Virus record (IMG/VR): IMGVR_UViG_3300049483_000322
Coordinates: 1-33,721 of that record
Reading direction: 5' to 3' (one strand)
Source: a virus
Length of the DNA: 33,721 bases
Shown: one piece after another, positions 3,517 to 33,721 of the stretch
How positions within the stretch are numbered: the first letter of the stretch is position 1
Layout of the letters: the number at the start of each line of letters is the position of its first letter
Translations under genes and position numbers: made by a program
The notes under the pieces: model-generated
The model's input: only the letters and a program-made list of their open reading frames with translations
Told to the model about the DNA's origin: nothing
The model's database searches: none

Positions 3517-3587
3517 AGCCTTGTTTGCAAGGCTCTAAATGAGTAGTACCTACTCCAATACAGAATACCGTTCATTTAGAGCCTTGC
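3517..3587. repeat. Nested inverted repeats at the 3' end of the 3572-4159 gene
   Basis: GCAAGGCTCTAAATGA (3527-3542) is the exact reverse complement of TCATTTAGAGCCTTGC (3572-3587), a 16-bp arm with a 29-nt loop. The left arm can alternatively pair with AGCCTTG (3517-3523) to form a short hairpin with a 4-nt loop. The segment GAGTAG...CTACTC (3541-3555) forms a third hairpin inside the loop. The right arm encodes the stop codon and last residues of the minus-strand gene. No U-tract follows on either strand. It may be a switchable terminator, a recombination site or a protein-binding cruciform. Confidence 0.7.
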
Positions 3588-4159
3588 GGTCCCCGAATGC
3601 GTTTAGGCAGCTTGAACCCTGATTTGTGAACCAAGTCACGTGCTTGCATGTATTCCCGTTTGTGCAGTGAATTGCTTCCAATGTGACCTGTCTGCCTGAC
3701 GCCCTTGGCCAAGGCGTACATATCACGAACGGCAGTGACTAGTGGAAGCCATAGCTCCACATTGAACTGGCGTCGCTTCAATTCACGGACTGGATCTGTT
3801 CCGTCTTGTTGCCATTGACGACCAAGAATGAACGCTCTTGTGACAGCTTTAGCAAGGTTGGACTGGTTGGTACAGAAGTCAAAATCAAAAGGCAGAGGAT
3901 AATCCTTCAAATGCCGCACCCTTCCCGCCACTATCTTCGTGACAAGACGCAATCCCAGCTCCATGTACGTCTCTTCCGTTTGGACTGTGATTAGGTGGTT
4001 GTTTCCTACTGAATCAGCAAACGACATCGCAGTGCTGCCTGTCATGTGATTACGTAAGATGTAGATCGCACACGTGTACTTGTTGACGACGCGGTACGGC
4101 TTGTCGTAACTCACACCTCCACCGCTGCTTTCTTTCTCATATGATATCTCCAAACACAA
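3572..4159 (-). CDS. Hypothetical protein with structured, attenuator-like leader
   Basis: Up to 195 aa if translation begins at the TTG at 4159. I recognise no family. The central part (MSFADSVGNNHLITVQTEETYMELGLRL to KDYPLPFDFDFCTNQSNLAKAVTRAF) looks like a globular alpha/beta domain, and the C-terminus is basic (HKSGFKLPKRIRGPQGSK). The start is uncertain. GGAG lies 7 nt before an out-of-frame ATG that opens a 9-codon ORF; its stop overlaps an in-frame GTG (GTGTGAG), so the mini-ORF may couple translation to a 180-aa form starting VSYDKPYRVV. The gene has its own sigma70-type promoter (4342-4370), a 175-nt leader, and a 16-bp inverted repeat over its 3' end. It is isolated from the late operons and is likely an accessory gene expressed early. 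Confidence 0.65.
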   Translation of the reverse strand: MCLEISYEKESSGGGVSYDKPYRVVNKYTCAIYILRNHMTGSTAMSFADSVGNNHLITVQTEETYMELGLRLVTKIVAGRVRHLKDYPLPFDFDFCTNQSNLAKAVTRAFILGRQWQQDGTDPVRELKRRQFNVELWLPLVTAVRDMYALAKGVRQTGHIGSNSLHKREYMQARDLVHKSGFKLPKRIRGPQGSK

Positions 4160-4335
4160 AACCCTTTGATGTCTGGCAGGGCAGCGATGCCCACATCAAA
4201 GGGTGTGTAGTCGTGAGACTAGAGTTGGTGCTATGAGTATCGCTGTTTGACCACCTGCCAGAGTGGTGTTACCCTATAAAACGAAAAACGATTTCGGTTC
4301 AAAACAGGGTACTTGGTCAACATCACTGTCGACCT
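4160..4335 (-). ncRNA. Structured leader RNA or small RNA upstream of the 3572-4159 gene
   Basis: It runs from the inferred start of the 4342-4370 promoter to just before the gene. It contains a nested hairpin (TACCCT/AGGGTA arms enclosing CGAAA/TTTCG, about 4270-4311), a small ACCAC/GTGGT hairpin near 4250, and the strong hairpin at 4161-4204. Its size and layout match the leader at 2436-2615: sigma70 promoter, about 175-180 nt, terminator-like hairpin, then gene. No known riboswitch class is recognised. Confidence 0.45.
4161..4204 (-). terminator. Strong bulged hairpin, terminator-like (possible attenuator)
   Basis: ACCCTTTGATGT (4161-4172) pairs perfectly with ACATCAAAGGGT (4193-4204). 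Inside is GGGCA-gcga-TGCCC (4179-4192) with a 6-nt bulge on one side. On the minus strand the stem is followed directly by TTTGTGTTTGG, consistent with an intrinsic terminator, and it sits immediately upstream of the coding start. On the plus strand no T-tract follows. Confidence 0.6.
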
Positions 4336-4341
4336 CTTGTA

Positions 4342-4370
4342 CTTATACAGGATTGCGTCAAAGATGTCAA
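4342..4370 (-). promoter_or_regulatory. Near-consensus sigma70 promoter for the 3572-4159 gene
   Basis: On the minus strand the -35 is TTGACA (4365-4370, perfect consensus) and the -10 is TATAAG (4342-4347), with a 17-bp spacer. It points away from the late motif at 4396, so early and late transcription diverge here. Confidence 0.75.
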
Positions 4371-4756: not shown

Positions 4757-7246
4757 ATGATCAATCTATCATCAACACCAATGCTGACCTCTTCCGGTCA
4801 GATGGCATCAGCAGGGTATGTTTACGACACCGGCACAATGTCGTGGGTTCCATCAACCGCCAGCGGCGGGTCTGGTCCATCAGCAAACGTCAACGTAACG
4901 AACACTTCACTTGCAGTCACCCAGCTTGGAACGTGGACCGTCAACACAACTGGATTGACTGATGCTCAACTGCGTGCATCACCAGTTCCGGTTTCGCTGA
5001 CATCAACAACTGTCACCGGTACTGTTGCAATCAGTGCTGCGTCGTTGCCTCTGCCTACTGGTGCTGCTTCTGAATCAACGTTGTCATTGATCAATGGAAA
5101 GATCCCAGCACAGGGACAAGCAGCAATGGCTGCATCGTTGCCTGTTGTTATCGCATCAAACCAAACCGGAGTTCCTGTCACTGGCACATTCTGGCAGACG
5201 ACACAACCAGTCAGTATTGCATCAATGCCTACGACTCCTGTCACAGGTCCATTGACAGACACCCAACTGCGTGCTTCTGCCGTACCGGTTTCATTGACAA
5301 GTACCACTATTACTGGCACTGTTGCAGCAACGCAGTCCGGTACATGGAACATCGGTTCCATCACCACGCTGCCATCGCTGGCTGCCGGATCTGCAATCAT
5401 CGGCAAGGTCGGTATTGACCAGACAACCCCTGGCACGACAAACAAGGTGTCAATCGGTAGTGACGGTGTTGTTGGTATCGGTACATCGCTTCCAGCTGGT
5501 TCTGCTTTGATTGGTAACGTTGGTATTACAGGCACAGCAACGACATCGGACACTCACACAACTGCTGCCGCCCCTCTGTCCGTTCGCTTATCTGATGGTG
5601 CAGCGTTCTACAACGCATCTGGTGGTGCTGGTGGTAATTTGGCAACTGCTGCAAAGGGAGCAACAACAGCTGGTAATCCAACGTCAGAGAACACAAGTGC
5701 TGACCTTCAATCTCTACACGTCAGGGTAACAAACACCACGTTGGCTGCAACGCAGTCCGGTACGTGGAACATTGGTTCTATCACTACCCTACCAGCATTG
5801 GTTGCAGGGTCTGCAATTGTTGGTAAGGTTGGCATCGATCAAACGACACCGGGAACAACAAACAAGGTATCGATTGGTTCGGACGGAACAGTTGCAATCA
5901 ATGCCGCACTACCAGCGGGTGCCGCAACAATTGGTGCTGTCAACATCAACGGCACGGTTCCTGTTTCTCTAGCTAGCACGACAATCACCGGCTCCGTTGC
6001 GGTTACAGGTCCGTTGACAGATACGCAACTACGGGCATCTGCCGTACCGGTTTCATTGGGATCAACGACCGTTTCCAACACCGTTGCAATCAGTGCTGCG
6101 TCGTTACCTCTACCGACCGGCGCTGCTTCTGAAACAACACTGGCAGCATTGAACACAAAGGTTCCTGCACAAGGCCAAGCATTGATGGCCGCATCGTTGC
6201 CAGTCGTCATTGCTTCGAACCAAAGTACGGTTCCTGTATCATTAACGTCTACAACAATCACCGGTTCAGTTGCGGTTACAGGTCCGTTGACAGATACGCA
6301 GTTGCGGGCATCTGCCGTACCGGTTTCGTTGACCAGCACAACAATCACAGGCACGGTTGCTGCAACGCAATCAGGTACGTGGAACATTGGTTCTATTACT
6401 ACCTTACCTTCACTACCAGCTGGTGCAAACACCATCGGTAACGTGATTGTGATCGGCCAAGCCGCATCAGGTGCAGCAAACGCCGGCAACCCAGTCAAAA
6501 TCGGTGGTGTGTTCAACACAACTCAGCCAACCGTAACGAACGGCCAAGCAGTTGACGCACAGTCAACTGCTCGTGGTGCACAAATCGTTGCAACTGGTGT
6601 CGACACATTTAACGTCAACGTATCGAACGGTTCATTGGCTGTTACCGGTCCACTTACCGACACACAGCTACGGGCATCTGCTGTTCCTGTGTCGTTGTCA
6701 AGTACCACTATTACTGGCTCCGTTGCGGTTACAGGTCCGTTGACAGATACGCAACTACGGGCATCTGCAGTACCAGTTTCGTTGACCAGCACAACAATTA
6801 CAGGTACAGTCGCTGCAACCCAATCAGGCACGTGGAACATCGGGTCAATCACAACGCTTCCAGCGTTGGTGGCCGGATCCGCAATTATCGGCAAGGTCGG
6901 TATTGACCAAACAACGCCAGGTACAACAAACAAGGTATCGATTGGAACAGACGGTATCGTCTCAACCAAGACAGCTCTAACGCCGTCTGCACCTGCAACT
7001 GCTTCCGTTGGCGTGGCCAGCGCATCCGCCGTTGCTGCCAACTCAAGTCGCAAGGGGCTAATCATTACCAACCTATCGAACAACATCGTGTCGCTGGGAC
7101 TAGGTGCAACTGCTGTGTTAAACAGCGGCATTTCACTGTCGCCATACGGCACCTGGTCGATGGATGAGTTCAGCTTCTGCACCAGTGCGGTCAATGCTAT
7201 CGCCGGCGCCGCAGCAAGCACGATTAGCATTCAGGAGTTTGCATGA
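4757..7246 (+). CDS. Large repeat-rich virion appendage protein
   Basis: An 829-aa protein built from shuffled, near-identical modules. PLTDTQLRASAVPVSL or a close variant recurs about six times. ATQSGTWNIGSITTLP occurs four times, GKVGIDQTTPGTTNKVSIG three times, and AISAASLPLPTGAASE twice. The composition is rich in T, S, V, G and A, with no long helices, suggesting a fibrous beta structure. A unique C-terminal domain of about 80 residues (RKGLIITNLSNNIVSLGLGATAVLN to TISIQEFA) is the likely globular tip or attachment domain. The role in the virion (side fibre, decoration or adhesin) is inferred. DNA-level repeats mean copy number may vary by recombination. It overlaps the next gene by ATGA. 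Confidence 0.72.
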   Translation: MINLSSTPMLTSSGQMASAGYVYDTGTMSWVPSTASGGSGPSANVNVTNTSLAVTQLGTWTVNTTGLTDAQLRASPVPVSLTSTTVTGTVAISAASLPLPTGAASESTLSLINGKIPAQGQAAMAASLPVVIASNQTGVPVTGTFWQTTQPVSIASMPTTPVTGPLTDTQLRASAVPVSLTSTTITGTVAATQSGTWNIGSITTLPSLAAGSAIIGKVGIDQTTPGTTNKVSIGSDGVVGIGTSLPAGSALIGNVGITGTATTSDTHTTAAAPLSVRLSDGAAFYNASGGAGGNLATAAKGATTAGNPTSENTSADLQSLHVRVTNTTLAATQSGTWNIGSITTLPALVAGSAIVGKVGIDQTTPGTTNKVSIGSDGTVAINAALPAGAATIGAVNINGTVPVSLASTTITGSVAVTGPLTDTQLRASAVPVSLGSTTVSNTVAISAASLPLPTGAASETTLAALNTKVPAQGQALMAASLPVVIASNQSTVPVSLTSTTITGSVAVTGPLTDTQLRASAVPVSLTSTTITGTVAATQSGTWNIGSITTLPSLPAGANTIGNVIVIGQAASGAANAGNPVKIGGVFNTTQPTVTNGQAVDAQSTARGAQIVATGVDTFNVNVSNGSLAVTGPLTDTQLRASAVPVSLSSTTITGSVAVTGPLTDTQLRASAVPVSLTSTTITGTVAATQSGTWNIGSITTLPALVAGSAIIGKVGIDQTTPGTTNKVSIGTDGIVSTKTALTPSAPATASVGVASASAVAANSSRKGLIITNLSNNIVSLGLGATAVLNSGISLSPYGTWSMDEFSFCTSAVNAIAGAAASTISIQEFA
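5996..6780 (+). repeat. Dispersed 59-bp in-frame repeats inside the 829-aa gene
   Basis: Three near-identical 59-bp units lie at 5996-6054, 6269-6327 and 6722-6780 (core GGTTACAGGTCCGTTGACAG). A diverged copy is near 6635-6700. Identity at synonymous positions indicates recent duplication or gene conversion rather than only protein-level constraint. Confidence 0.85.
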
Positions 7247-9405: not shown

Positions 9406-9855
9406 TCAACCTTTCAGCAACTGATCCAAAAGCTGTTTGGCACTTTGTAGAGCCTGTTTGACCTTGTGTAGTTGCTGTATATCAGCAACTGCAAGATTGA
9501 ACAATCGTTGTGACGTCACATAACCAGGAACACGACCATCTGGATCCAACTTACGGATCCGGTTCTTCAGTTGAATCGCAATCGTTTCGTCGTCAAGTGC
9601 AATTGCACTCTCCCATACCCAATGGCGTTCACCTTCTGGTGCATCCGGATTAATTACCTTGCACACAACAACGTAACATTTCCCGTCTTCAAGTTGGTCG
9701 TAGCAGTTCCTAACAACCAACTTGTCTGGAGAGATAATGTGCGTTCCAACAGACCCAGTCAACCGTCGGTAACGAACCTTCAGCTGTTTGCGGGACTTCT
9801 TGATTTCGATGTGTGGTGTCAGAAACACCAACTCAATTTGGTCATTTGGATTCAT
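9406..9855 (-). CDS. Hypothetical protein downstream of the HNH gene
   Basis: A 149-aa protein. Residues 1-85 look like a small beta-barrel (IELVFLTPHIEIKKSRKQLKVRYRRL, then GKCYVVVCKVINPDAPEGERHWVW). The C-terminal 50 residues form a probable coiled coil (VADIQQLHKVKQALQSAKQLLDQLLKG). I do not recognise it. Its ribosome binding site AGGAG lies inside the last codons of the HNH gene, and the two frames overlap by 14 nt, so it is translationally coupled to the endonuclease. It may be a partner or simply hitchhike with it. Confidence 0.65.
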   Translation of the reverse strand: MNPNDQIELVFLTPHIEIKKSRKQLKVRYRRLTGSVGTHIISPDKLVVRNCYDQLEDGKCYVVVCKVINPDAPEGERHWVWESAIALDDETIAIQLKNRIRKLDPDGRVPGYVTSQRLFNLAVADIQQLHKVKQALQSAKQLLDQLLKG

Positions 9856-11891: not shown

Positions 11892-12305
11892 ATGAACCTA
11901 CCGGAACAACAAAAGCGTCCACGTGGCCGTCCACCGATTGACGTTGATCAAGACAAAATCCTTGAGCTCGCTTCAATTGCGTGCACATTGGATGAAATCG
12001 CTATGCTATGTGGTTGCAGTGTGTCAACGCTGCGTGGCAAGTACAAAGAAGTGTATGACCTTGGGTTTGCCAAGGCACGCAGCTCACTTCGTCGGGAACA
12101 GTGGAAAGCAGCACACTCCGGAAGTAACGCAATGTTGATTTGGTTGGGTAAGCAAATGCTTGGTCAACGTGACTTCAAGGATGACCCAGCAAAGGCACAA
12201 GATGCTGAGTTGACAGCGGCAGAACTGGATCAAAAGATTAGCAAGCTATTGGAAGCACCGCAAGTTTCGTTAAATACGGATACGCCAAGTGGAGAGAATG
12301 AATGA
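11892..12305 (+). CDS. Terminase small subunit-like HTH protein
   Basis: A 137-aa protein from the ATG at 11892; an ATG at 11877 would add 5 residues. It opens with an AT-hook-like RPRGRPP. A helix-turn-helix follows (ILELASIACTLDEIAMLCGC, SVSTLRGKYKEVYDLGFAKA), then SSLRREQWKAAHSGSNAMLIWLGKQMLGQRD. The 'a..gn..mliwlgK..LGqrd' ending is characteristic of small DNA-binding proteins annotated as TerS. An acidic C-terminal tail follows. TerS recognises the packaging site and recruits TerL. Unusually, TerL lies on the far side of the genome (28687). No ribosome binding site precedes either ATG, and the late motif abuts the start. A transcriptional regulator is the main alternative. Confidence 0.6.
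   Translation: MNLPEQQKRPRGRPPIDVDQDKILELASIACTLDEIAMLCGCSVSTLRGKYKEVYDLGFAKARSSLRREQWKAAHSGSNAMLIWLGKQMLGQRDFKDDPAKAQDAELTAAELDQKISKLLEAPQVSLNTDTPSGENE
12270..12277 (+). promoter_or_regulatory. Possible late promoter motif TTAAATAC
   Basis: TTAAATACGGATAC lies 32 nt before the gp4-like start. It closely matches TAAATACAGATAC at 398. It sits inside the end of the TerS-like gene and has T rather than G/C at the first position. Confidence 0.45.
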
Positions 12306-13039
12306 GCACAACCCGTCAACTGATTACAGGTGCTATGCGCCTTTTGAACATCTACGCTGCTGGTGAAACACCATCTGCTGATGATATGGACATCGCAAAG
12401 CAAGCGCTTGCCGGAATGATCGACAGCTGGTCAAACAACCGGTTGATGGTTTACACAGTAACGCCGTACCAATTCGCAACAGTATCAAACCAAGCAACGT
12501 ACACACTTGGGGTAGGTGGCAACTGGAACACAGAGCGCCCAATGGAGATTGCAAGCATGCAGGCCCGTCAGAACCCAGGGTCAGCACAACAGCTTGACAT
12601 CCCAATGCAATCATTGACTGATGAACAGTATGCAAGTATTGCGGTCAAGAATGTCACAAGTACATTCCCATTTGCATACTATGATGCTGGTGATTACCCT
12701 TTACGGACAATTACGTTGTTCCCAATCCCAGCAAGTGGTTTTGTGATTGCGTACTTGTGGTCTCCGCTGTTGGATCTGGACAACCTTGATGTTGAAGTTA
12801 GTTATCCACCTGGGTATGAGCGTTGCTTCCGTTTCAACCTTGCCCTTGAACTTGCAGCAGAGTTTGGTAAAACTGTACCAGAACAAGTCGGTGCAGTTGC
12901 CCTTGCATCAAAGCAGGAACTAGAGCGCCTGAACAGTACGCCACGTTACGCCCACGGAGACGGTGGAATGATTCGTGGTGGACGCAACCGCTTCTTCAAT
13001 TACATCACAGGCAACTTCCGCACATTTGGGAACTGGTAA
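12302..13039 (+). CDS. Head-to-tail adaptor, P22 gp4-like
   Basis: A 245-aa protein. MSTTRQLITGAMRLLNIYAAGETPSADDMDIAKQALAGMIDSWSN is the hallmark N-terminal helical region of the P22 tail accessory factor gp4 family. It binds under the portal and helps retain packaged DNA. The middle (YTLGVGGNWNTERPMEIASM) and C-terminal half (ELAAEFGKTVPEQVGAVALASKQELERLN) also match the family layout, and the size is typical or slightly larger. It overlaps the TerS-like gene by ATGA and the gp10-like gene by one base. The order gp4 then gp10 is that of P22. Its ribosome binding site, GGAGAG, lies in the end of the upstream gene. Confidence 0.82.
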   Translation: MSTTRQLITGAMRLLNIYAAGETPSADDMDIAKQALAGMIDSWSNNRLMVYTVTPYQFATVSNQATYTLGVGGNWNTERPMEIASMQARQNPGSAQQLDIPMQSLTDEQYASIAVKNVTSTFPFAYYDAGDYPLRTITLFPIPASGFVIAYLWSPLLDLDNLDVEVSYPPGYERCFRFNLALELAAEFGKTVPEQVGAVALASKQELERLNSTPRYAHGDGGMIRGGRNRFFNYITGNFRTFGNW

Positions 13040-14508
13040 TGGCTGAGAACAAACAAGTCTTTGAAGGGTTCATTGGACCCTCTTACACTGGTCGCAGTGA
13101 ACGATTCCAGGCACAACGTCTGGTTAACTACTACCTTGAGCTTGACCAAGTTGGTTACGCAAAGGGTGGGCAGAAGGCTGTTGCGATTGGTACGCCTGGG
13201 TTGGAACTATTGCACACCGTTGGTGCTGGCCCAATCCGTGGGCTGTACACACAAAGCAATGATGAGATTTCATACATTGTATCTGGTAACCAGGTGTTTT
13301 CAATCAGTGCTTCACTGTCTACGCCTGTCCTACTGTCAGGCAATCTGAACAGTTCATCTGGTCCTGTAGCAATCACCGACAACGGCTTGCAAGTGATTAT
13401 TGTTGATGGTACAGATGGGTACTACATCACGATCGGCACAACTACCGTTACACAGATTGTAGACCCTAACTTCTTTTCGACCAAGACGATCACGTTCCAA
13501 GACGGATACTTCATTGGGGTTGACTACGGGACACAAGCATTCTTCACCAGTGACATCAACAGTATTAACTTCCCACCGCTGAATGAGACCAATGCACAGG
13601 GTTCACCTGACGTGTTGGTAGCAGCAATCAGCAACAACCGTGAGCTGTACCTACTGGGGTCAAAGTCGTTGGAGATCTGGTATAACCTCGGGCAAAGTGC
13701 AACAACCCCATTCCAGCGCCAAGACGGTCGGTTCAGTCAGATTGGCTGTGCAGCGGCTGCAAGTATCGCTGTGATTGGTGAGACATTCTTCTGGTTGGGC
13801 AGCAATGCACAGGGTGGTGGAATCGTGTACGCTCTTGAGAACGCACTGCCAACCCGTATCAGTACACACGCTGTAGAGTACGCCATCCAACAATTGGGTG
13901 ACATCTCCGGTGCAACTGCGTACGCATACCAACAAGAGGGCCACCTGTTCTATGTGCTGAACATCCCAGGTTCTCCTACGACTTGGGTGTATGACATGTC
14001 CAGCGGACAGTGGGCGGAACGTCAGAGCAAGGTCAACGGTGTAACAGGGCGCCATCTTGGTGAGAACCACTGCGTGCTGGCTGGTACACACTTAGTAGGT
14101 GATTACCGCAATGGCAACGTGTACAGGTTCAATCTGGACTACAACTACGACGACACCCACAGCATTCCACGTATCCGTCAAGCACCACATTTGAGCGCAA
14201 GCTTGAACCTAAACTACTACTGGTTACTTGAAGTCGACTGGCAGATGGGAGTTGGCCTTCAAAACGATGGGGTCAACCCTGCAAGTTCAGTTGATCCCCG
14301 TGCAGTGCTGGAGATCAGTCGTGACGGCGGTGAGACGTTCACCTATGTGCAGTATGCATCTTTAGGTAAGGTTGGTCAGTACCGATACCGTGCCCGTTGG
14401 CGCCGTCTTGGTTCTGGTCGTGACCTTGTGTTTAGGGTTACCCTAACAGAACCTGTACGGGCAACCATGTTGAGCGCCTACATTGATTGGGAACAGGGTC
14501 AAGCATGA
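13039..14508 (+). CDS. Tail hub / packaged-DNA stabilisation protein, P22 gp10-like
   Basis: A 489-aa protein. The N-terminus has IGPSYTGRSERFQAQRLVNYY, which resembles the 'yt.rs...d.qrliN.Y.E' opening of the P22 gp10 stabilisation family. The rest is beta-propeller-like: IRGLYTQSNDEISYIVSGNQ, FTSDINSINFPPLN, LLGSKSLEIWYNLG, FFWLGSNAQGGGIVY. Length is near P22 gp10 (472 aa). It forms the hexameric hub to which spikes or fibres attach, below the gp4 ring. It is adjacent to gp4 through a TAATG junction and overlaps the cupin-SET gene by ATGA. No disruption is seen. Function is assigned by family layout and context. Confidence 0.82.
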   Translation: MAENKQVFEGFIGPSYTGRSERFQAQRLVNYYLELDQVGYAKGGQKAVAIGTPGLELLHTVGAGPIRGLYTQSNDEISYIVSGNQVFSISASLSTPVLLSGNLNSSSGPVAITDNGLQVIIVDGTDGYYITIGTTTVTQIVDPNFFSTKTITFQDGYFIGVDYGTQAFFTSDINSINFPPLNETNAQGSPDVLVAAISNNRELYLLGSKSLEIWYNLGQSATTPFQRQDGRFSQIGCAAAASIAVIGETFFWLGSNAQGGGIVYALENALPTRISTHAVEYAIQQLGDISGATAYAYQQEGHLFYVLNIPGSPTTWVYDMSSGQWAERQSKVNGVTGRHLGENHCVLAGTHLVGDYRNGNVYRFNLDYNYDDTHSIPRIRQAPHLSASLNLNYYWLLEVDWQMGVGLQNDGVNPASSVDPRAVLEISRDGGETFTYVQYASLGKVGQYRYRARWRRLGSGRDLVFRVTLTEPVRATMLSAYIDWEQGQA

Positions 14509-28690: not shown

Positions 28691-30135
28691 GCCAACGCCA
28701 AGTCCACGAGCTGTCGCTTGATGAGAAGGCAGAGCTGTACCTTCTATTGGAGACCAAACGTCTGTTGATGCGTGATCGCAAGATGGACACAATGTTTCCA
28801 ACGGATGGTCCACTGCGTCGTGAGTTGTACAAGAAGCAGATCGACTTTTTCAAGGCAACCAAGAAGTCGAATGAAGTGATGTTGCTTGGTGGCAACCGAA
28901 CCGGTAAGACGTGCGTTGGTGCTTACGCAATAGCTGTATGGACAACTGGTGAATACCCAGATTGGTGGGCAGGCCGCGTGTTCGACGGTCCTGTTGATGT
29001 TTGGATCGCTGGAGACACTTCAAAAACAGTCCGTGACATTGTCCAAACGGAGCTACTTGGACCAGCAGACCAATACGGTACTGGCATGCTTCCTAAGAAG
29101 TCAATCGGCACAATGTGGAAGGCAAGTGGTACAGCCGCCTACATGGATACTGTTGAGGTAATGCACACAAGTGGCACTCCATCCCGAATCCAGTTCAAGT
29201 CGTATGACCAAGGGCGTAAGGCGTTCCAAGGGACAAAGAAGGACATCATCTGGTTGGACGAAGAGAGCGATGATAGCATCTACCAAGAATGCTTGATGCG
29301 GACAATGACAACCGGCGGGTTGGTGATTCAGACAATGACGCCTCTGATGGGTCTGACGCCGCTGATCAACTCATTCAAAACAGCCGACCCGAAGTCGGGT
29401 CGTATAGTGATCACGGTGACATGGGACGATGTGCCTCACCTGACACAACAAGACAAAGACCGCCTGTATGCTGGGTTACCTCCACACCAGCGTGATGCCC
29501 GTAGCCGTGGTGTTCCACAACTCGGTGCAGGTGCAATCTATCCAGTACCAGAATCAGGGTTTAGTGTTCCACCATTTGAGATTCCCAAGCACTGGAGACG
29601 GGTATACGCACTTGACGTTGGTTGGAATTTCACTGCGGTCGTGTGGTATGCAATCGATCCTGATACAGGTGTACGATACATATACAGCACACACAAGCAA
29701 GGTGAAGAGCGTCCACTGTTCCACGCAGATGCAATTAAGGCAAGAGGTGCGTGGATCCCTGGTGTGATTGACCCGGCGTCACGTGGCCGAAGCCAAGATG
29801 ACGGTGCAAAGTTGGTTGACCAATACAAGGGACACGGGCTGGCTCTTGACTTTGCAAACAATGCAGTTGAAGCAGGCATTTACGCCGTGTGGGAGGCGTT
29901 GAGCACTGGTAAGTTGAAGGTGTTCTCAACCGTAGCGGACTGGTTCGCAGAGTTCCGCACATACCACAGAGATGAAAAGGGTCGTATTGTCAAGAAGGAT
30001 GACCACTTGATGGATGCAACCCGATACGGGTGGATGGCAGGTGACAAGGCTATTGTTGAGCCGGTGTCAACGCAGCCGTACCAGCAATACCAAGTACCGA
30101 ACCAGTTCCGCCCACAACCAATCATACGGAGATAA
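28687..30135 (+). CDS. Terminase large subunit
   Basis: A 482-aa packaging motor that pumps DNA into the prohead and cuts concatemers. The ATPase domain has Walker A GGNRTGKT (residues 67-74), Walker B with catalytic acid IIWLDEE (186-192) and a coupling motif QTMTPLMG (near 215). The C-terminal RNase H-like nuclease begins with ALDVGWN (near 310), continues through GVIDPASRG, and ends with KKDDHLMDATRY (about 440). The three acidic positions expected for the two-metal nuclease are visible. The length is typical. It overlaps the preceding gene by ATGA and is followed by the GroES-like gene and the portal. Confidence 0.92.
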   Translation: MSQRQVHELSLDEKAELYLLLETKRLLMRDRKMDTMFPTDGPLRRELYKKQIDFFKATKKSNEVMLLGGNRTGKTCVGAYAIAVWTTGEYPDWWAGRVFDGPVDVWIAGDTSKTVRDIVQTELLGPADQYGTGMLPKKSIGTMWKASGTAAYMDTVEVMHTSGTPSRIQFKSYDQGRKAFQGTKKDIIWLDEESDDSIYQECLMRTMTTGGLVIQTMTPLMGLTPLINSFKTADPKSGRIVITVTWDDVPHLTQQDKDRLYAGLPPHQRDARSRGVPQLGAGAIYPVPESGFSVPPFEIPKHWRRVYALDVGWNFTAVVWYAIDPDTGVRYIYSTHKQGEERPLFHADAIKARGAWIPGVIDPASRGRSQDDGAKLVDQYKGHGLALDFANNAVEAGIYAVWEALSTGKLKVFSTVADWFAEFRTYHRDEKGRIVKKDDHLMDATRYGWMAGDKAIVEPVSTQPYQQYQVPNQFRPQPIIRR

Positions 30136-30139
30136 CCAA

Positions 30140-30706
30140 ATGACAGACTTACAAGCAACAGCAACAAACGTAATCTATAAGTGGCGTGACCCAGCCGTGT
30201 ATAAGGTTGGGGCTATTGAGCTGGCCCAGCAACTGCAGATGGATACCCGGTGGGCTGTCGTGTTGGTGACAGGAGTCAAGTCAATCCTTAAGCCAGGCGA
30301 TCACATTTTGTTGTCGGCACGCCCGGTCAGCTACACATTCGAATATGAAGGAGAAACAATGTACAACACAAGCGACGAAAGCACGCTAGCATTCAAGCGT
30401 GATGGAAAACTGGGTGCAACAGCACAGACAATCCTATACGAATGGTTGCACGAAGCAGATGCTGAAGAAACAACTGAGAGCGGAATCATCATCAAGCGGA
30501 AGAAGGAAACCAAGGAGTTTACTCCTATGTGGGCAGTTGTTCATGCCGCAGGTCCTGATGCCGGTGTTATTGCTGGTGATCACATCTTGGTTGCATACAA
30601 CAAGGACGCCTACACAATTGAGATTGACGGACACAAGCTGCACAACTGCGGGTCAAAAGAGAGTCTGATCTGCTATCGGCGCCCTTCTGCGTCTCAATCA
30701 GTGTAA
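30140..30706 (+). CDS. Tandem-duplicated GroES-like co-chaperonin
   Basis: A 188-aa protein from the ATG at 30140 (GGAG upstream). It consists of two related halves. ATATNVIYKW (6-15) parallels ATAQTILYEW (93-102), WAVVLVTGV (38-46) parallels WAVVHAAGP (131-139), and KPGDHILLSA (51-60) parallels IAGDHILVAY (144-153). YTFEYEGETMYNTSDES (65-81) parallels YTIEIDGHKLHNCGSKES (158-175). The pattern (V..G...GD.i..., then beta strands with an acidic hairpin) is that of GroES-type barrels. In the second half, EETTESGIII corresponds to the GroES mobile loop with its GroEL-contact tripeptide (GIVL in E. coli). The first half lacks this loop. By analogy to T4 gp31, it may assist coat folding with host GroEL. 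Position between TerL and portal supports a morphogenetic role. Confidence 0.7.
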   Translation: MTDLQATATNVIYKWRDPAVYKVGAIELAQQLQMDTRWAVVLVTGVKSILKPGDHILLSARPVSYTFEYEGETMYNTSDESTLAFKRDGKLGATAQTILYEWLHEADAEETTESGIIIKRKKETKEFTPMWAVVHAAGPDAGVIAGDHILVAYNKDAYTIEIDGHKLHNCGSKESLICYRRPSASQSV

Positions 30707-33064: not shown

Positions 33065-33721
33065 ATGACAACAGAAACCACAACCACAGCTACCCCTGCG
33101 GCTACAGAAACCACAACTCCCGCAGCAGTTGTTGAAACAACGACGCCCGCGGCGGTAGAGGCAACAGCGACTGAAACTCCTGCGGAAACGACAGAGGCAA
33201 CAGCGACTGAAACTCCTGCGGAAACGACAGAGCCTGTAGAAGCTCCAAAAGAGGCAAACGGATTCCAGCGACGGGTTGAGCGTGCAAAGGCTAAGGCCCG
33301 TGCAGAGTCAGCTGCTGAGATTGAGTACTGGAAGCAGCAAGCAATGGCTGCATCAGCACCACCGCAAACAACTCAACCACGCTCAAACAACAAGCCGGAG
33401 TTGGCTGATTACCCGGATATGACGTCGTACATTGATGCACACTCACAATGGGTGATCACCAATACACTGGCGCAACAAGCACAACAAGCACAACAACATC
33501 AAGCTGTGTCACAGTACAACACACGTGCTGCTGCATATGCGAAGGCAAACCCAACGTTTGCTGAAGACGTGCAAGACTTGGTTGATACGTACGCTGACAG
33601 CCCAGTACCTGAACTGACGCAGCTTGCGTACGAATCGGACGTTGGGCCTGCATTGGTTCACTATCTGTCCAAACACCAAGATGAGATGGAGCGGATTGTT
33701 GCGCTACCAAGTCACCGTCGT
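33065..33721 (+). CDS. Scaffolding protein, N-terminal part (runs off the contig end)
   Basis: It encodes residues 1-219 of the 289-aa protein completed at 1-340 (3' part). The first 60 residues are a low-complexity Thr/Glu/Ala/Pro region with a perfect 12-residue tandem repeat (EATATETPAETT twice). A charged helix follows (GFQRRVERAKAKARAESAAEIEYWKQQAM), then a Gln-rich stretch (NTLAQQAQQAQQHQAVSQYN). The conserved central block (AAAYAKANPTFAEDVQDLVD, then SPVPELTQLAYESDVGPALV) is typical of podophage scaffolds, with 'dp.f...i..l....p......l..s..gp.l'. The ribosome binding site is GAAAGGATTGG. It follows the portal and precedes coat, the canonical order. The protein is expected to direct assembly and leave the prohead. 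Confidence 0.82.
   Translation, partial: MTTETTTTATPAATETTTPAAVVETTTPAAVEATATETPAETTEATATETPAETTEPVEAPKEANGFQRRVERAKAKARAESAAEIEYWKQQAMAASAPPQTTQPRSNNKPELADYPDMTSYIDAHSQWVITNTLAQQAQQAQQHQAVSQYNTRAAAYAKANPTFAEDVQDLVDTYADSPVPELTQLAYESDVGPALVHYLSKHQDEMERIVALPSHRR
33158..33229 (+). repeat. 36-bp perfect tandem repeat in the scaffold gene
   Basis: Two identical 36-bp units (33158-33193 and 33194-33229) encode EATATETPAETT each. Exact identity at third positions implies recent duplication. Confidence 0.92.
33595..33721. repeat. Terminal direct repeat, right copy
   Basis: Identical to 1-127, inside the scaffold gene. When merged, the scaffold frame is continuous (33065 to 33721, then 128 to 340). 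Confidence 0.95.

Follow-up and report, generated by a model that had tools for sequence, protein, structure and literature searches.

The locus and its genomic setting

The DNA that we analysed (the window) is a complete IMG/VR record of 33,721 bases. Its two ends are identical over 127 bp (1-127 = 33595-33721), and it probably represents a whole genome, either circular or with terminal repeats. Among its products are a P22-like coat protein, a portal, a large terminase and a head-closure protein; no replication, integrase or repressor genes were recognised among the ORFs scanned in the 33,721-base record. The nearest records are environmental podovirus-like contigs (61-64% protein identity), and the nearest named phage by terminase is EBPR podovirus 1 (53.7% identity). 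In the two nearest relatives the counterparts of the capsid-side genes 578-1825, 1886-2083 and 12302-14508 are contiguous; since these relatives lack the intervening stretch, the minus-strand genes at 2136-2805 and 3572-4140 form part of an accessory stretch. Elsewhere in the window, an 829-codon ORF (4757-7246) contains many diverged repeats of 80-230 nt each, and its product is likely to be a structural or fibre protein with a repetitive sequence. A minus-strand HNH endonuclease gene (PF13392; 9842-10930) adjoins a further minus-strand ORF at 9406-9855, for which no family was assigned, and the C-terminal part of an ORF between the terminase and the portal (30014-30706) matches GroES/Cpn10 (PF00166).

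The feature studied here, leader B, lies on the minus strand upstream of one of the accessory genes. The first ORF after it is a nine-codon minicistron, MRKKAAVEV (4140-4111), preceded by the Shine-Dalgarno (SD) sequence GGAG; its stop codon, TGA, overlaps the GTG start (4114) of a 180-codon ORF (4114-3572) in the tetranucleotide GTGA. Such a stop/start overlap is the usual sign of translational coupling, although here a single sequencing indel could also have produced it. The 180-codon ORF belongs to no known family, and no homologue was found in viral contigs, GTDB genomes, phages or plasmids; AlphaFold, run without an alignment, gave a model with a pLDDT of 44. The end of this ORF coincides with a strong 3' hairpin (3587-3527) built on a 15-bp perfect inverted repeat (z = -6.9, equalled by none of 200 shuffles). 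The repeat, CAAGGCTCTAAATGA / TCATTTAGAGCCTTG, spans the region of the stop codon and has no T-run behind it.

Promoter B, the leader and its terminator-like hairpin

Transcription leftwards into the leader is expected from promoter B, which consists of TTGACA (4370-4365), a 17-bp spacer and TATAAG (4347-4342). The two hexamers match TTGACA/TATAAT at 11 of 12 positions, and TTGACA-17-TATAAG is the sole exact match in the 33.7 kb, with no sites at one or two mismatches. By its sequence match, this is a strong sigma-70 promoter of the type used by host RNA polymerase. Transcription would start at about 4335, giving a leader of about 175 nt (∼4335 to ∼4160). The predicted fold of this leader is far more stable than expected for its composition (-65.5 kcal/mol, compared with -47.5 ± 3.7 kcal/mol for shuffles; z = -4.9, with none of 200 as good). 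An earlier note on this DNA, made from the sequence alone, had described a near-consensus promoter driving a structured leader of this length, and both parts of that description hold. The 5' part of the leader is predicted to form tandem hairpins, I and II (4334-4270); the fold of 4335-4269 has an energy of -25.9 kcal/mol (z = -5.1, 0/200 shuffles). Rfam returned no family at the gathering score for leader B, and hence no known riboswitch or leader; weak matches at 2048-2197 correspond to a terminator after the capsid region, outside both leader B and the 'leader A' discussed below.

The leader ends in a hairpin (4204-4161) of 12 bp, a 6-nt bulge and 5 bp, with an energy of -24 kcal/mol (z = -4.05). 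The tail that follows is UUUGUGUUU, which is U-rich to about 4152. The hairpin and its tail thus have the stable stem-loop and adjoining U-rich tract of an intrinsic terminator and read as one; as the U-tract is interrupted, the strength of this terminator is uncertain. Our terminator scan missed the hairpin because it accepted loops of 3-8 only. The 12+5 bp bulged hairpin and the T-rich tract had been noticed earlier and are confirmed here, but the statement that the tract stands right before the coding start was loose, as the ATG at 4140 opens nine codons only.

Searches for relatives of leader B were made by similarity and by pattern. Searching phages with blastn gave no homologues, and the single match among eight related virus records, within the G003 capsid gene, is attributed to chance. 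The exact pattern CTGGCAGG-8-CAGCGAT matched 73 times in IMG/VR, about the number estimated for chance, and in no case with the partner strand; the exact pattern ATCGCTGCCCTGCCAGACATC gave no match in IMG/VR. A terminator-stem pattern had a single match in IMG/VR, which was rejected as a relative of leader B as its flanks are unrelated. Leader B is known from one sequence, with no homologue of the leader or of the gene in any collection searched, and this limits the weight of what follows.

A predicted helix that would compete with the terminator

A second pairing, overlooked in the earlier note, is a 25-bp long-range helix between 4262-4229 and 4198-4172. Its core is the complementarity of UCUGGCAGG (4262-4254) with CCUGCCAGA (4180-4172) and of CAGCGAU (4245-4239) with AUCGCUG (4188-4182), and neighbouring pairs bring it to 25 bp. 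Both CCUGCCAGA and AUCGCUG sit within the terminator hairpin, and the helix, a putative antiterminator, and the terminator stem are predicted to be mutually exclusive, with the helix forming first as the RNA is transcribed. In minimum-free-energy folds of the growing transcript the helix appears once the 3' end reaches ∼4186 and is complete with ends between 4172 and 4162 (-61.5 kcal/mol); from 4160 the terminator replaces it (-62.0 kcal/mol). The full-length gap between the two folds is 0.5 kcal/mol. At the level of predicted folds, leader B has one feature expected of a transcription attenuator, an alternative pairing exclusive with the terminator.

We compared this balance with that of sequences in which the terminator was kept and the upstream part was shuffled. 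The gap was then 9.7 ± 2.8 kcal/mol; a value as low as that of leader B was reached by 5 of 1000 shuffles, and by 3 of 200 when the test was repeated. The test was devised after the helix had been seen. Under four energy sets the gap is 0, 0, 0.5 and 3.9 kcal/mol, i.e. below 1 kcal/mol in three of the four; with the Langdon2018 energies the terminator is favoured over the antiterminator. The same test applied to the E. coli attenuators gave 13.8 (thr), 11.7 (trp), 15.1 (leu) and 26.2 kcal/mol (his), none of them low, because the ground state of these leaders is the terminator; leader B is balanced differently. A low gap certifies no attenuator, and it is not diagnostic of the classical attenuators. 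The fetched loci also supplied a weak empirical null: of their 25 strong hairpin-plus-T-run sites, three, leader B included, have a gap of ≤0.5 kcal/mol, and several of the other sites look more like coding sequence than like terminators.

The 5' strand of the helix is also where a possible 30-codon leader ORF, MLTKYPVLNRNRFSFYRVTPLWQVVKQRYS (4323-4231), comes to its end: its last codons and its stop codon (TAG, 4233-4231) fall in that strand. The ORF has a fair ribosome-binding site (SD energy of -6.5 kcal/mol), and its start site is inside hairpin I. Its codon use is unlike that of the phage genes (0.4th percentile), yet it is the best of the six frames. To model a ribosome on the leader, the bases that it would cover were blocked and the probabilities of the two folds, P(term) and P(antiterm), were computed. 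For the naked RNA the model gives 0.53 and 0.42, respectively. With a ribosome at the stop codon of the leader ORF these become 0.98 and 0.0, and with one at codon 15 they become 0.42 and 0.54. At codons 5-10 the terminator is still favoured in the model [P(term) of 0.81 and 0.72], so early stalling in the leader ORF would not clearly turn the gene on.

Interpretation and alternatives

We give a probability of about one half to the reading that leader B is a transcription attenuator of the minus-strand accessory gene. Host RNA polymerase would start at promoter B, and the nascent RNA would fold into hairpins I and II and then into the antiterminator helix (4262-4229/4198-4172). As the last bases emerge, the terminator hairpin (4204-4161) would compete with the helix, with a predicted stop at about 4155, just before the gene. 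Because the two folds are nearly equally stable, a small input could choose between a terminated RNA of ∼180 nt and the full mRNA. The likeliest input would be a ribosome translating the 30-codon ORF: once at the stop codon or close to it, the ribosome would cover the 5' strand of the antiterminator and force termination, whereas the antiterminator would stay available if translation were slow or absent. The same outcome would follow if a protein or a second RNA occupied 4262-4229. We infer termination itself, translation of the leader ORF and the ribosome as the signal, and control of the accessory gene by leader translation is a tentative part of the model, considerably less certain than attenuation itself. 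A phage-borne translation sensor, in which the gene is on by default and off whenever a ribosome completes the 30-codon ORF, is a good deal more speculative; if it were true, the accessory gene would be switched on when translation in the host breaks down, as it might when a defence system blocks it.

The E. coli trp, his, thr and leu attenuators resemble leader B in having a promoter, a short ORF with its stop codon in the antiterminator strand, exclusive folds and a gene just downstream. In contrast to these, leader B lacks both the run of regulatory codons for one amino acid by which ribosome-mediated attenuators are recognised, which is absent from MLTKYPVLNRNRFSFYRVTPLWQVVKQRYS, and a clear I:II protector stem, the element that would release the terminator in the absence of a ribosome. 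Hairpin II (4311-4270) excludes region II (4262-4229), and the only hairpin that overlaps part of region II is one of 6 bp at 4267-4250. Leader B also differs in that its folds are nearly equal, so that read-through may be the default, and in that it precedes a phage accessory gene and no biosynthetic operon. Attenuation of the trp type likewise involves competing folds of similar stability (PMC1183508).

As regards the order of folding, leader B is also like the Bacillus trp/TRAP type, in that the antiterminator comes first and occupation of its 5' strand by a factor would tip the leader towards the terminator. The Bacillus type is a protein-controlled attenuator with the antiterminator as the default; an array of its binding triplets was not noticed in leader B in an unsystematic look.

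In the usual description, a phage accessory gene belongs to a constitutive cassette of promoter, gene and terminator. The main rival to attenuation, a serious possibility that we nevertheless consider less probable, is that leader B is the front of an ordinary cassette of this 'moron' kind: a short transcript (a 30-residue peptide or a small RNA) would end at a constitutive terminator that insulates the gene, the gene would owe its expression to partial read-through, with the antiterminator no more than a chance pairing. The strong promoter and the hairpin with its U-tract suit this explanation, as do the bounding of the region by a second terminator-like repeat (3463-3444) together with the 3' hairpin, and its place as an insertion relative to the relatives with contiguous capsid-side genes. 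Like moron cassettes, this locus has an accessory gene, here on the minus strand, inserted among structural genes under a host-type promoter of its own; unlike them, it has a terminator-like hairpin between the promoter and the gene. Shuffles reach the balance of leader B at a rate of 0.5-1.5%, which the post hoc choice of the test could absorb. A 25-bp competing helix over most of the 5' arm of the terminator and its apical stem is nevertheless unusual, and the stretch 4160-4114 shows no promoter that would serve the gene separately. If the attenuator reading is right, an attenuator with a micro-ORF would be a case of a phage using RNA folding, and perhaps translation, to gate an accessory gene, and the locus would offer a compact system for probing what leader B senses.

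It is improbable that the leader is instead a small RNA acting in trans, ∼175-180 nt long and with a promoter and a terminator of its own, the downstream gene being incidental. Promoter and terminator do bracket a highly structured RNA of about 175 nt, but there is no Rfam match and no homologue that would show a conserved core, and a ribosome-binding site and ORF start less than 20 nt from the hairpin are a better fit to a leader. We consider it very unlikely that hairpins I and II act like the put RNA of phage HK022, binding RNA polymerase and permitting read-through of the terminator. HK022 putL is ∼70 nt long, with two stem-loops just downstream of PL (PMC9378689). Leader B similarly has two stem-loops over ∼65 nt (z = -5.1) directly after a phage promoter and upstream of a terminator; the likeness is one of size and position, and leader B has its own antiterminator pairing in addition.

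Leader A

The earlier note had taken leader B and 'leader A' (2627-2464, minus strand), which has a -10-like TATAAG, two hairpins and a terminator-like hairpin, as two copies of one phage-specific regulatory RNA with the same architecture. The segments that it cited as common are present: TATAAGTACA, the promoter end, occurs twice on the minus strand (at 4347 and 2627), and TTGATGTGG lies inside the final hairpins of both, although 0.7 occurrences of the latter are expected by chance per window. The resemblance goes no further. The best local alignment of A and B was equalled by 146 of 1000 shuffle pairs and their structure distance was no better than that of shuffles (79/150), which is the outcome that the earlier note had named as refuting its proposal; in the balance test A was equalled by 168 of 200 shuffles, compared with 3 of 200 for B, and so lacks the antiterminator balance. 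The promoter of A is weak, with only TTGCGT at -35, and its TATAAG shares bases with the stop codon of a 60-residue minus-strand ORF (2805-2623). Related phages yielded no additional copies. We rejected A and B as one RNA family, and it is scarcely credible that they are two copies of one regulatory RNA: their common features are those of any pair of terminated leaders on the minus strand, plus the 10-bp -10 region. A regulatory RNA leader before a minus-strand accessory gene is a fair reading of B; a two-copy system with A is not supported.

The terminator-like hairpin of A (2496-2466) may simply separate two minus-strand genes. The 60-residue ORF has a better promoter-like site of its own, TTGACC-17-TATACT at 2840; its ATG follows this site by about 7 nt (2840-2623, minus strand), and its transcript is possibly a leaderless mRNA.
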